This document shows positions 1,105 through 23,254 of a stretch of DNA of 40,946 nucleotides, in pieces. How positions within the stretch are numbered: position 1 is the first letter of the stretch; the number at the start of each line of letters is the position of its first letter. Source of the stretch: Clostridia bacterium (GTDB taxonomy: Bacteria; Bacillota; Clostridia; Peptostreptococcales; Acidaminobacteraceae); assembly GCA_016938815.1 (NCBI GenBank), contig JAFGTX010000163.1, forward strand, positions 1 to 40,946, given 5' to 3'. The notes beneath the pieces are model-generated. The model saw only the letters and a list, made by a program, of their open reading frames with translations. It made no database searches and was not told where the DNA came from. The position numbers were made by a program, and so were the translations under genes.

Positions 1105-2883
1105 ATGAGTTACAAAGATAAACACCTTATTAAAATAATAGCACTTCTCATCTTGTCTGTCTTTCTAATGGTGGGTTGCATACAGAAACCGGCCACAAGG
1201 AAAGCTTCGCAGGGCCTTTTGGATTTGACGACATGGGACGTTGAACGAGATGGTATGGTTAGTTTAGATGGTGAATGGGCGCTTTATCCGAATCGTTTTT
1301 TGACACCAGAAGAATGCAAAGATGAAACCTACACTTCAGAGGCACAATATATCGAAGTGCCCAATTCCTATAAGACGACTGTATCCGGTAGGCAACTGCC
1401 GATGTATGGTTACGGCACGATGCGCTTGGTGATTCAGATGCCAGAGGATGCACAAGGTCAGTATGGCTTAATCGTGCGACAGATCCTAAACGCTTCCAAA
1501 GTGTGGATTAACGGTGATCTAGTGTCTGAAATCGGCCGTGTAGGGACGGAATCCATAAATTCTGAAGGCAGCTTTGAACGGCAACTGATCGCTTTTTTTA
1601 GTGATGCTGATCAAGTGGATATTGTGGTCCAAATGTCGAATTTTGACAATGTTGTCGGACGCATTAGACCGATTCCTTTTGGAAATTATCAAACGCTTAA
1701 AAGACATTATACAGCGACTATGGCTTCGGATATTTTTATCAGTGGTGCGTTGTTCATCATGGCTATTTATCATTTTGCACTTTACTACAAAAGACCGAGC
1801 AACAAAATGCCACTCTACTTTGCTTTTTTTTCCATGATCATTGCATTGAGGGATGTGTTGGTGGGTGGCAGGCTGATTTATGAGCTTGTGCCGACCATTG
1901 ATTTCGGATTATTTAATAAGCTGGCCTACTTGACGGTCTATGCAGCGTTTCCTTTTATTGTCATGTTCTTTAAAGAGTTATTTCCTGATGCTCTGCTATC
2001 CAGGTTTACCAAGGGTATCATGGGGATATCTATCGTTATAAGTTTGATCACACTTTTTTCGGAGATATCGGTTTACGATCGTTTTCTTAAGTATGTGGAA
2101 GCCTTGATATTGGTTTTCTTTGCCTATCTCTTGATGCTGGTTGTCCGAGCGGTCTTTCAACAGGTAGATGGTGCGGGTATTGTGCTGTTCGGTACGGGGG
2201 TATTCTTGCTTGCTGCGACCAATGACATGCTGGTTCAGTCGGGATTGCTTCATACGCGATCACTGGCTTCTTACGGCTTCTTTGTCTTTATTTTTTCCCA
2301 GTCCTATTTGTTGGCAGCACAGTTTTCTGATGCCTATCTTAAAATCGAAAAACTGGTTCAGGAGAATAAAAAATTGTACATTGATACCTTAACGGGCATA
2401 CTTAACAGAAGAGGTTTTTACGATAAAGGGGAGGCCTTGTTGGAGCATGTGGAAACGACTGGAGAAATCTTTACCGTTTTTTATGGAGATTTGAATGGGC
2501 TAAAATCTATCAACGATAACTTTGGACATAGGGCTGGTGATGAAGCCATTAAGGCGGCAGCTGAAATTATGAAAAAATCTTTCTAATCCGATGATTTGGT
2601 AGCTAGAGTCAGCGGCGATGAGTTTATTGTTATTTCACATCATTGTGAAACCCCTAAAAAAGCGGAGGAGATCATGGCCCGAATCCATAAACGTTTCAAC
2701 CGTTTTAATGGAACATCCAGTCAACCCTTTGAATTATCCATCAGTGTGGGTTATTCCATCTATGGCAATGACTCGGATATGACCTTTGATGCTTTAATTC
2801 AGGTTGCCGATGCTATGTTGTATGAGAATAAATCAAAATTTAAGAGAAATATGGGTGCAGCCAAGCGGTTTTATGCGGAATGA
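1105..2883 (+). pseudogene. 7TMR-DISM membrane sensor with GGDEF domain, interrupted by in-frame TAA
   Basis: Read through one TAA at codon 494 (2584-2586), this is a 592-residue sensor. It has an N-terminal hydrophobic signal ending in VGC (Cys25, possible lipoprotein), a 7TMR-DISM-type extracellular beta domain (LDGEWALYP motif, roughly residues 40-200), about seven membrane helices (roughly 205-410), and a GGDEF diguanylate cyclase domain (DTLTG at 427-431, SGDEF at 503-507). The frame is kept across the stop and the downstream part is fully GGDEF-like, so this is a nonsense change, not a frameshift. The stop sits exactly where the Arg of an RxxD I-site would be (stop-S-D-D, five residues before SGDEF). 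Translation would give a 493-residue product without the SGDEF loop. A sequencing error or real gene decay are both possible. The PP-loop gene follows after 33 bases. Confidence 0.85.
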
Positions 2884-8663: not shown

Positions 8664-8737
8664 AAATATAGGAATAATGTTAAAATACGGAAATGAAACG
8701 CGCTTTTTATTCTAATAAACTACAGGAAGGTGGTTTA

Positions 8738-10522
8738 ATGCGCTTTAATGACTATGATCAGTTGTTCCATGCTTCTTTGGATGCCATGGTGCGCATTGAT
8801 AATGAAAGCAACATTCTGGAAGTGAATCGACGCTTCATAGATTTTTTCGGTTATAGTTCTGAAGACATACTGCATCGCAAACTGGATGATGTGGTAGTTT
8901 GTGCCGCGCTACGGGAAGAATCGGCACTGCTGGACCAGAGAATTTCCACAGGTGAACTGATTACGATGGATTCTACGCGTATGGATAGACATGGCGTTGA
9001 ACACCATGTATTCATAACAGGTATTCCGATTATTGAAAACAAAACATACAAAGGAGCTTATGTCATTTATCGAAACCGGACCATGGAAGTGGAGTCGGAG
9101 CGTAAGCTGTTGAACCAAAAGGTGACTTTTGAATCGCTGTTCAGAAATTCCAACGACGCGATTGTACATATTGACGTCCACCAGCGTGTGATTGACATCA
9201 ACGAGCGGTTTGAGACGTTATTTGAATACACACTGGAAGAAATCAAGGGGGAAAAGGTAGATCCTCTTATTTCGAGAATAGATTTTTTAGATGAAACCAC
9301 AGAGTTGACGGACCGATTGATGAGCGGTGAGAAAATTGTCGTCGAAGGACTGAGATACAGCAAAAATGGGTATTCTAGAATGTATTTGGTCCAAGGCGTG
9401 CCGATTGTCGCTGCTGGAACAGTGATTGGCGGATATGGTATCTATACGGACATTACCGAGCGTAAAAATGCTGAAAATGAAGTCATCTACATGAGCTATC
9501 ACGACCAATTGACAGGTCTCTATAATCGACGTTTCTTTGAAGAAGAATTCAATCGTCTGAATACCCAAAGACATATGCCGATGAGCTTGATTATGGGTGA
9601 TGTCAATGGGTTGAAACTGGTTAACGATGCCTTTGGTCATGAAGCCGGGGATGAGTTTCTCAAGCGGATTGCTTCGACATTACGGGATAATTATCGGGAA
9701 GGTGAGTTGATTGCCAGATTGAGTGGCGACGAGTTTGTCATCCTCTTGCCGAATACGACGACAGAAACATCAGAACGTATTCTTCAACGTCTAAAATTGG
9801 CTTTGAGCTGTGAGCGATTTAGAGGTATTGAACTCTCCATGTCTTTTGGCTGTAGTTCTAAAATCGATCAGGCCGAGCCGAACTCCGTACTTTTTAAACG
9901 GGTTGAGGATATGATGTATCGCCACAAGCTGGTGGAGAGCCCTAAGGTGAAGGGTGAGATATTCGAGTCGGTCATCAAGATATTACATGCTAAGAATGAA
10001 CGCGAAGAGCTTCATTCCATGTCGGTAAGCCTCTATTGCGGTGAAATTGCAGAGGCACTAGGTATGAATCCAAGATTCCTGCTGGAAATGAAAACGCTGG
10101 GCTGGTTACATGACATTGGTAAGATTGCTATCAGCGATAGCATCTTGGATAAACCGGGTGCATTGACTGAAGAGGAATGGAAAGAGGTCAAGAAACATCC
10201 GGAAATTGGCTACCGTATTTTGAATTCGGTCCATGAATTCACGGAACTGTCGGGATTTGTTTTACACCATCATGAATGGTATGATGGTAGCGGTTACCCT
10301 AAGGGTATTGCAGGCGAAGACATTCCAATTCAGTCTAGAATTTTAGCGGTGGCAGATGCCTACGAGGCGATGGTCAGCGATCGAACCTACAGGGAAGCAT
10401 TGTCCCAGGAAGAGGCGATTGAAGAGTTGAGGGTGCATAAGGGCGATCAATTCGATCCTAATATTGTCGATATTTTTGTAAGCCGCCTTAGAGGAAAACA
10501 AAACATATGGAAAAAGGAATGA
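8738..10522 (+). CDS. PAS-PAS-GGDEF-HD-GYP c-di-GMP signalling protein
   Basis: The protein has 594 residues from ATG 8738, chosen over the ATG at 8693 because AGGAAGGTGG (8724-8733) lies four bases upstream. There is no membrane segment, so it is cytosolic. Order: PAS (about 5-115), PAS (about 130-245), GGDEF (DQLTGLYNRR at 256-265, SGDEF at 329-333) and HD-GYP (HDIGK at 458-462, HHHEWYDGSGYP at 510-521). GGDEF domains make c-di-GMP and HD-GYP domains hydrolyse it. The HD-GYP metal ligands look complete, including Asp540 of ADAYEAM. The GGDEF signature has Ser for the first Gly, and the I-site position reads REGE, not RxxD, so product inhibition is unlikely. Net activity is probably degradation, by inference. 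Confidence 0.93.
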   Translation: MRFNDYDQLFHASLDAMVRIDNESNILEVNRRFIDFFGYSSEDILHRKLDDVVVCAALREESALLDQRISTGELITMDSTRMDRHGVEHHVFITGIPIIENKTYKGAYVIYRNRTMEVESERKLLNQKVTFESLFRNSNDAIVHIDVHQRVIDINERFETLFEYTLEEIKGEKVDPLISRIDFLDETTELTDRLMSGEKIVVEGLRYSKNGYSRMYLVQGVPIVAAGTVIGGYGIYTDITERKNAENEVIYMSYHDQLTGLYNRRFFEEEFNRLNTQRHMPMSLIMGDVNGLKLVNDAFGHEAGDEFLKRIASTLRDNYREGELIARLSGDEFVILLPNTTTETSERILQRLKLALSCERFRGIELSMSFGCSSKIDQAEPNSVLFKRVEDMMYRHKLVESPKVKGEIFESVIKILHAKNEREELHSMSVSLYCGEIAEALGMNPRFLLEMKTLGWLHDIGKIAISDSILDKPGALTEEEWKEVKKHPEIGYRILNSVHEFTELSGFVLHHHEWYDGSGYPKGIAGEDIPIQSRILAVADAYEAMVSDRTYREALSQEEAIEELRVHKGDQFDPNIVDIFVSRLRGKQNIWKKE

Positions 10523-18884: not shown

Positions 18885-18965
18885 GAGTAAAAAATATTTA
18901 TTATGTAAATCCTTGGGTAAATAATGGGCATTATTATTTTTAATATCAGCCAAGAAAGGAAAAAT

Positions 18966-20939
18966 ATGAGATTCATAATGTTTAAAATCAGGGCGTATAA
19001 AATACAATATGTACTTTTTGTATTGATTGCCTTTACGGTGATATTACAATTATCTATACCTAGCAGAGCCGCTATATTAAGTGAAGATTTTAATGCACTC
19101 TTTGAGAATCATGGTTCCATGATGTTGATCATTAATTTAGACAATGGCAGCATTGTTGACGTAAATAAAGCGGCGGTCAAATTTTATGGTTATAGTCGAG
19201 AAGAGCTTTTAGCCATGACCATTTATGAAATCAATACTTTATCACCAGAAGCCATTGCTGACAAGATGTCGGCTGCTGAAAGCTCTGAATGTAATTTTTT
19301 TTCTTTTGAACATGTCTTAAAGAATGGTGAAGTGAGAAATGTTGAAGTACATTCATATCCATATCAAGATGATCAAGGTCATCACTTATTGCATTCTATT
19401 ATTCACGATGTGACGGATAAAATTAAAGCGGAAGCAGAAGCGAAGCAGCAACGGATTATTATTTGGACCATTATTATAGTTAGTTTGCTTATTGTTATAG
19501 CAATTATGATACAACTCTTAAAGACACAGAGAAAACTAAGAAATATTTCAGAACGCTTTCAAGATTTATTTACCAATATGAACGAAGGCTTTGTCTTGTA
19601 TGAGATGATTTGCAATGAAAAGGGTGTAGCGACGGATTATCGTCTTTTAGAAATGAACCGTGTCTTTGAAGCCATAATGGATATTAAGAGAAAAGCGACA
19701 GACCAGAATGAAATGTCCAAAGTAATCTCTTATATGACGGTAAATCAATTTGAAAAGTATGCTGAAGTGGCTTTAAATAATAAGGAACTGTCATATGACT
19801 ATTATTCTGAGGTCTTGAAACGACACTTTACCGTTAATGTTTATAGTCCTAAGTATAAGCAATTTGCTATGATTTTTACGGATATTACAGATCGGATTGA
19901 AAAAGAATCAAAGATTGAATATTTAAGTTATCACGATCAATTGACAGGTTTGTACAATAGACGATTTTATGAAGAGGAGCGACGTCGTTTAGATATCTCA
20001 AGAAACTTACCATTTTCAACTGTTATGATGGATGTAAACGGTTTAAAACTATCCAATGATGCATTTGGCCATATTCTTGGCGATCAATTGTTACAATGCG
20101 TGGCAGAAGTGATTAAAGAAGAGTTTAGAGCAGATGATATTTTGGCTAGAGTTGGTGGTGACGAGTTTGTTGTCCTTCTGCCTAAAACATCAGAAGCAGA
20201 AGTTGCCCATATTGTATCTCGGGTCATGGAGCGTATGCAATATGAAAGGATCGATGTTCTGTCTGTTTCCGTCTCCATGGGATGGGCAACTAAAACAGAA
20301 ATGATTCAAGATATAGAAGATGTTTTTACAAAAGCTGAAGAGATGATGTATAGTCGTAAGCTAATTGAAAGTAAAGCCATGAGACTTAAGACAATTGATA
20401 TTATTTTGGATGATTTAAGACGGCGAAGTCAACAGCAGTATGAGCACTCACAAAATGTCAGTCAAATTTGTGGAGAATTTGGGCGCTTTATGAATTATGA
20501 TGATGATTTGGTCCAAGAGCTAGAACGGGCTGGTGCACTTCATGACATTGGAAAAATTAGTTTTTCTGAAAGTTTATTTGATGGGTCAAGGGGTTTATCA
20601 GACGATGAGTATGAAGAAATCAAACGTCATACTGAAATAGGCTATCATATTTTGAAATCTGTAGATGAGTATGCCACAATATCTGATTGCGCCTTGAGTC
20701 ATCATGAATGGTGGGATGGAACAGGCTATCCTCGCAATATAGCAGGTGAAAAAATACCGCTTTTGGCTAGAATTATTAGTATTGTAAATGCTTATGAAGT
20801 TATGACGTCAGAGCGGCCTTATAGAGAGACTCTGTATTGTCAAGATGCGCTTAAAGAACTTAAGCGATATTCGGGATCTCAATTTGACCCAGATTTGCTT
20901 GCAGCATTTTCCGACATGATATTAGAAAAGCATACTTAA
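18966..20939 (+). CDS. Membrane PAS-PAS-GGDEF-HD-GYP c-di-GMP signalling protein
   Basis: The protein has 657 residues from ATG 18966 (AAAGGA five bases upstream; the ATG at 18924 has no ribosome site). Order: membrane segment (about 14-31), PAS (about 40-152), second membrane segment (164-185), PAS-like region (about 195-310), GGDEF (DQLTGLYNRR 324-333, GGDEF 397-401) and HD-GYP (HDIGK 526-530, HHEWWDGTGYP 579-589). An intact I-site RADD (388-391) lies five residues before GGDEF, indicating feedback-controlled cyclase activity. In HD-GYP the late metal ligand Asp is Asn608 (VNAYEVM instead of ADAYEAM), which may cripple hydrolysis. It resembles the cytosolic homologue at 8.7 kb but is visibly more AT-rich than its neighbours. 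Confidence 0.92.
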   Translation: MRFIMFKIRAYKIQYVLFVLIAFTVILQLSIPSRAAILSEDFNALFENHGSMMLIINLDNGSIVDVNKAAVKFYGYSREELLAMTIYEINTLSPEAIADKMSAAESSECNFFSFEHVLKNGEVRNVEVHSYPYQDDQGHHLLHSIIHDVTDKIKAEAEAKQQRIIIWTIIIVSLLIVIAIMIQLLKTQRKLRNISERFQDLFTNMNEGFVLYEMICNEKGVATDYRLLEMNRVFEAIMDIKRKATDQNEMSKVISYMTVNQFEKYAEVALNNKELSYDYYSEVLKRHFTVNVYSPKYKQFAMIFTDITDRIEKESKIEYLSYHDQLTGLYNRRFYEEERRRLDISRNLPFSTVMMDVNGLKLSNDAFGHILGDQLLQCVAEVIKEEFRADDILARVGGDEFVVLLPKTSEAEVAHIVSRVMERMQYERIDVLSVSVSMGWATKTEMIQDIEDVFTKAEEMMYSRKLIESKAMRLKTIDIILDDLRRRSQQQYEHSQNVSQICGEFGRFMNYDDDLVQELERAGALHDIGKISFSESLFDGSRGLSDDEYEEIKRHTEIGYHILKSVDEYATISDCALSHHEWWDGTGYPRNIAGEKIPLLARIISIVNAYEVMTSERPYRETLYCQDALKELKRYSGSQFDPDLLAAFSDMILEKHT

Positions 20940-21454: not shown

Positions 21455-23254
21455 ATGAAACGAAACGAGCTTAGGAATAAACTTTCAGCGGAACAGTTAA
21501 AACAAGCCATCGATATAAGCAAAATAGGCATATGGGAGTGGTCGTTGGATACGGATCAGGTATTTGTTTCTGATGGGGTATACAAAACGATCGGCATTTT
21601 ACCGGAACAATTTGAAAATACCATGACCTTTGTTGTCGGTAGGGTGATCCATCCAGAGTCGCGTATATACTTTATGAAGGCGATGGCTTTAGCGCGCAAA
21701 GAAGGTCGTGTCAATAACGATACATACCGTGTGAACCATGTGAGTAAAGCGGTTTGTTGGGTCAGATTTTTTTCAAAGACAGTCAGAGATGCCCAAGGCA
21801 ATGTCAGCAAGATTATAGGTACGTTGATGGAAGTGACGGAGGAAGTGGTATCTCAAAAGGCGTTGATGTCAGAACTGGAGTTTATGAAGAATATGGTCGA
21901 AACTTTGCCGACGCCGATTTACTACAAAAATCCCAAAGGGCAGTATGAGTTCTGTAATCAGGCATTTTTGAATTTTTTTGGACAAAAAAGAAAGGCGGTC
22001 ATTGGCCGGTCGATTGAGGATATTACATCTCAGGAATCCGTTGACCTAATCAAATTGGCAGATGAGGAGTTGTTGAAGACCCAAAAGGCACAGACTTTTG
22101 AAGGTAAAGTTGTCCCTTCGAATGGGACGCCCCATACGGTTGTTTTCAGCCGAGCGGCACATTTTAACCAACGCGGCACTGTAGCTGGCATTGCAGGTGT
22201 GTTTCAGGATATAACAAGCCAGAAGTCCATTGAGCGCGAAATGAATATGCTCTATAAAGCTAAGGATGCCTTCCTTTCGATTAATAGAGATATGATGATG
22301 TACAAGAGTGTTAAGGAATTCTTTCAGAATCTACATATACGTTTGCAGGGGATCTTTGAAAAATCAGGGTATTCAGCGGTATTGGAATTGGATGATGCTG
22401 ATATGCTCAGGATTATTTATAGTAGTGGTTACAATGAAAGTGATGTAAAGAAATTTGAACTGCCTATAAGGGATAGTTTCTTTGAACACAGCGAAAATTT
22501 AACGACTCAGAGGTCGATGCTGCTTAGTGAAGTGGATATGACTAAAGATGGGGGCGGTTTGGTCGTCGCTACCAAAGATGGCGCGGCGATAAAATCGATT
22601 CTATTGATTCCTGTGTGTGTCACTGGAAAATTGAAATGGGTCTTATCTTTTGACAGCAGTCAGAGCCATGCTTTCGATGAAATCGACGAATTTGTAGCAG
22701 AGTATATCCATCAAGAATTGCCGATTATCTACAGAATGTATGAACTTTATCAAAAGACGTTGATGTTGTCTCGATATGATGGTTTAACGGGACTTATGAA
22801 CAGAAGGTATTTTGAGCATGTTTTCGAGGAAAAACTCAACCGTGCTATCTACAGTAAAACGCAACTGGTTGTGATGCTGTTTGATTTGGATGGTCTTAAA
22901 CGGGTTAACGACAATTATGGACATCACGCTGGAGATGCGTATATAAAAGCTTTTGTTCAACTTTTGACGGAGGCATTTGCTGGTGTGGATATGTTGGCGC
23001 GTATCGGTGGTGACGAGTTTACGGGTATTTTTGAAAAGGCAGATATTGCGCTTTTGGTCCATCAAATAGAGACCTTGCGCCAAGCTTTTGACAAACAACA
23101 AATTCAATCGGGAGATATCGTCTTTAGTGGAAGTTTCAGTTATGGTATCGCCTCGTATCCGATGGATAGCAAGGATTTACATGAATTGCAGATGATTGCT
23201 GATCAGAAGATGTATAGAGACAAGCAATCCAGACGTAAAGGAACTTCTAGCTAG
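21455..23254 (+). CDS. PAS-PAS-GAF-GGDEF diguanylate cyclase
   Basis: This 599-residue cytosolic protein has two PAS domains (about 15-130 and 143-258), a GAF-like domain (about 265-430) and a C-terminal GGDEF domain (DGLTGLMNRRYF 442-453, DLDGLKRVNDNYGH 477-490, GGDEF 518-522). It should make c-di-GMP from two GTP. The position of the I-site reads AGVD, without the Arg, so it is probably free from product inhibition. The first PAS has WEWSLDTD and CWVRFFSKTVRD, typical of the PAS_3 fold. There is no HD-GYP or EAL partner domain. A TATAAT lies 28 bases upstream of the ATG, and a terminator follows the gene. Confidence 0.93.
   Translation: MKRNELRNKLSAEQLKQAIDISKIGIWEWSLDTDQVFVSDGVYKTIGILPEQFENTMTFVVGRVIHPESRIYFMKAMALARKEGRVNNDTYRVNHVSKAVCWVRFFSKTVRDAQGNVSKIIGTLMEVTEEVVSQKALMSELEFMKNMVETLPTPIYYKNPKGQYEFCNQAFLNFFGQKRKAVIGRSIEDITSQESVDLIKLADEELLKTQKAQTFEGKVVPSNGTPHTVVFSRAAHFNQRGTVAGIAGVFQDITSQKSIEREMNMLYKAKDAFLSINRDMMMYKSVKEFFQNLHIRLQGIFEKSGYSAVLELDDADMLRIIYSSGYNESDVKKFELPIRDSFFEHSENLTTQRSMLLSEVDMTKDGGGLVVATKDGAAIKSILLIPVCVTGKLKWVLSFDSSQSHAFDEIDEFVAEYIHQELPIIYRMYELYQKTLMLSRYDGLTGLMNRRYFEHVFEEKLNRAIYSKTQLVVMLFDLDGLKRVNDNYGHHAGDAYIKAFVQLLTEAFAGVDMLARIGGDEFTGIFEKADIALLVHQIETLRQAFDKQQIQSGDIVFSGSFSYGIASYPMDSKDLHELQMIADQKMYRDKQSRRKGTSS

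Follow-up and report, generated by a model that had tools for sequence, protein, structure and literature searches.

A single in-frame TAA interrupts a 7TMR-DISM-GGDEF diguanylate cyclase gene at an I-site column where its orthologs carry no arginine

Within the window, the whole 40,946-nucleotide stretch of Clostridia DNA analysed here, a gene for a membrane diguanylate cyclase of the 7TMR-DISM-GGDEF type is broken by one in-frame TAA, which we explain, with a little more than even confidence, as one recent nonsense mutation in a gene whose family is large and redundant. The stop occupies the alignment column of the I-site arginine of the GGDEF domain, but the orthologs of this gene have no arginine at that position. 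No new mechanism is needed to account for the interruption, which is an event of an ordinary kind.

Translation of the frame at 1105-2883 (plus strand, 592 codons) reveals the TAA as its only internal stop, after which reading goes on as S-D-D-LVARV-SGDEF (Table 1). The membrane region upstream is assigned to the 7TMR-DISM_7TM family, with 78.2 bits against a gathering cut-off of 29. The TAA falls inside the GGDEF domain, after profile position 69 and before position 73, ahead of the SGDEF signature. Both halves match PF00990 separately, and a genome search with stops read through returned a single continuous match at 2377-2838 (126 bits, annotated as '1 TAA'), so that this is one interrupted domain rather than two chance open reading frames. 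A continuous GGDEF domain with its GG(D/E)EF loop requires readthrough of the stop; in standard translation the signature, encoded as SGDEF 3' of the stop, is absent from the predicted product. Translation and the two Pfam halves thus bear out what a previous sequence-only reading of this DNA had described, namely a 7TMR-DISM/GGDEF frame with one TAA, leaving a shortened protein that retains the sensor and is deprived of the catalytic loop. The 493-residue product would comprise the sensor, the membrane spans and half a GGDEF domain and, with the SGDEF loop missing, would be expected to have no diguanylate cyclase activity, a loss that may well be tolerable given some 40 other GGDEF domains in the genome.

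Table 1. Features of the interrupted gene, in window coordinates.
Feature	Positions	Strand	Description	Source
Translated part	1105-2586	+	N-terminal extracellular region, 7TMR-DISM_7TM, first GGDEF half; 493 aa	Pfam scan, translation
7TMR-DISM_7TM (PF07695)	1732-2319	+	Residues 210-405	Pfam scan
GGDEF first half	2377-2583	+	PF00990 profile 2-69, E 5e-14	Pfam scan
In-frame TAA	2584-2586	+	Alignment column of the I-site Arg of RxxD-type domains; orthologs have Gly, Ala or His	
Frame remnant, GGDEF second half	2587-2883	+	98 codons, normal end TGA 2881-2883; PF00990 profile 73-157, E 5.7e-15	
SGDEF active-site signature	2611-2625	+	3' of the stop; common to 9/9 orthologs	

Relatives of the gene were sought in samples of the family, order, class and phylum, in GTDB contigs and in the genera of the GTDB Clostridium matches, the genus sample consisting of the bacterium's own genome alone. 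The family sample supplied one relative (G019) and the GTDB contigs three Clostridium loci; besides G019, the order, class and phylum samples yielded only relatives with 30-33% identity, and no close relative was found on plasmids. Nine orthologs, 45-49% identical to the window protein (49% for the nearest relative found), form a single clade with it, apart from the 30% relatives with 100/100 support. The clade (loci L010-L013 and L055-L059) is made of 7TMR-DISM-GGDEF proteins with an SGDEF signature and no I-site arginine, scattered among Clostridia.

The sequence-only reading had also proposed that the stop replaces the arginine of an RxxD I-site, deduced from the spacing to the signature. 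Its geometry is correct, with five residues from the Asp column to the signature, and alignment to the solved DosC domain indeed places the TAA in the column of the Arg of RSSD. The second part of the proposal does not hold. When the codon was compared in relatives, none of the nine orthologs showed either a stop or an Arg: the column is filled by Gly in seven (all with codon GGA), Ala in one and His in one. The Asp three residues further on is kept, so that the orthologs read GxxD, AxxD or HxxD (as GKDD, GRED, AESD and HKSD), followed by five residues and SGDEF. The RxxD arrangement, with Arg first and five residues between Asp and signature, is therefore found neither in the window gene, where the stop stands, nor in any ortholog, and this group has no RxxD I-site to lose. 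Arg does occur in the column, only in the distant, 30%-identical relatives of the GGEEF type (L014, L016 and L051). Moreover, all six Arg codons lie at least two bases away from TAA, and a single-step mutation could thus not have replaced Arg. The spacing to the signature is itself weak evidence, close to a coin toss, since a motif scan found Arg at the I-site position in 13 of 28 other GGDEF domains of the same genome, and the frequency of RxxD in the literature is about 53% (PMC3974145). The claim of a replaced I-site Arg fails, and under a nonsense mutation the position of the stop in this column would be a coincidence.

The sequence 3' of the stop contains no second stop and no frameshift. 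Among the residues invariant in the nine orthologs, 20/22 are kept after the stop, and likewise 20/22 before it within the GGDEF domain. The remnant is 39-48% identical to the orthologs, versus 37-44% between the intact G019 ortholog and the others over the same stretch. A rough simulation of neutral change placed 15 substitutions in the 294 bases (0.05 per site); both the frame and the invariant residues survived in 4.6% of runs. The good preservation of these codons indicates that the interruption is either recent or an artefact that is not in the organism. The organism itself probably carries the stop; the relatives compared were at most 49% identical.

The genome, of 3.2 Mb, harbors about 43 GGDEF matches, which implies a large redundancy. 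Three further GGDEF proteins are encoded in the 41-kb window (8693-10522, 18924-20939 and 21455-23254), two of them with a PAS-GGDEF-HD (HD_5) organization. The window gene is the only one of the 43 GGDEF matches with an internal stop, and none of the 58 HATPase_c matches has one, these rates being taken from domain searches. Genes in the window end most often in TAA, which terminates 19 of the 34 counted; the base that follows the interrupting TAA is T, a common context that seven of these 19 stops share. A genome-wide reassignment of TAA was considered and ruled out on the counts of TAA-ended window genes and of uninterrupted HATPase_c matches. A second GGDEF gene (L032, G000:C49:15300-16050, minus strand) carries a frameshift close to the C-terminus of its domain, with profile positions 1-135 and 135-161 in different frames, and is compatible with either gene decay or an assembly error.

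Isolated consensus errors are common, as are lone nonsense mutations in genes of redundant signalling families, and an assembly or consensus error would leave the same picture, which sequence alone does not separate from a nonsense mutation. A sequencing, assembly or minor-variant error, with a sense codon and a full-length, ordinary diguanylate cyclase in the organism, is the main competitor, a substantial possibility that we nonetheless place below an even chance. It would fit an assembly of 438 contigs with 94.7% completeness, a remnant that looks fully functional, and the isolated frameshift in the C49 gene, of a sort typical of error-prone assemblies; yet the TAA site lies outside any long homopolymer and internal stops are otherwise rare in this assembly, a rarity for which we slightly prefer a nonsense mutation over a consensus error.

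A regulated role for the stop, either bypassed by TAA readthrough or recoding or separating a GGDEF domain made in two pieces, is highly improbable. The downstream half is preserved, in-frame starts are available past the stop (TTG 2596 before SGDEF, and ATG 2674, with GGAGG upstream, after it), and interrupted diguanylate cyclase genes of Shigella flexneri still give c-di-GMP (PMC11327459). However, the stop is located inside the domain, so any restart yields half a GGDEF only, and rescue by a restart at TTG 2596 or ATG 2674 was rejected, neither producing a complete domain. The features of programmed readthrough are missing, the stop being absent from all nine orthologs and the RNA folding 3' of it unremarkable (z -0.63); a search of Rfam gave no match to a known RNA element, and in this genome TAA serves as an ordinary stop codon. 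Slightly less probable again is fixation of the TAA in the species with the interrupted gene in use, whether through readthrough or as a shortened 7TMR-DISM sensor that retains half of the GGDEF domain. We give the least credence to the idea that the 493-aa protein is retained as a sensor devoid of catalysis or as a dominant-negative partner, for although its sensor and membrane region are intact and match the orthologs at 43-49%, the undecayed remnant leaves little time for the truncation to settle as a stable design, and no other case was found among the relatives.

The interruption matters little on its own, and the useful part of the work is a correction: an RxxD motif should not be deduced from spacing to the signature alone, as the orthologs here lack it. 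If active, the SGDEF-type 7TMR-DISM group would escape inhibition through the canonical I-site, and the orthologs may be diguanylate cyclases that lack canonical product inhibition. An SGDEF signature can be active, as in ECA3270 of Pectobacterium, an SGDEF-type diguanylate cyclase cited in PMC3974145 as reported active, so that the orthologs may be active enzymes as well. ECA3270 carries SGDEF instead of GGDEF, as does the window gene, but is uninterrupted; the likeness was compared at the signature only.

The closest known counterparts are the Clostridia 7TMR-DISM-GGDEF proteins, such as those of Clostridium magnum (L010) and C. folliculivorans (L011), which share the domain order, the SGDEF signature and 45-49% identity over most of their length. 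All nine read through the column at which the window gene has its stop. Single nonsense mutations with an intact downstream part, as found here, have been described in the dgcE, dgcM, dgcN and dgcQ genes of S. flexneri, and these genes still yield c-di-GMP, with proteins that correspond to downstream starts or to full length (PMC11327459). In S. flexneri, however, the stops precede the GGDEF domain and a downstream start can supply it whole (PMC11327459), which is not possible in the window gene, where the stop lies within the domain.
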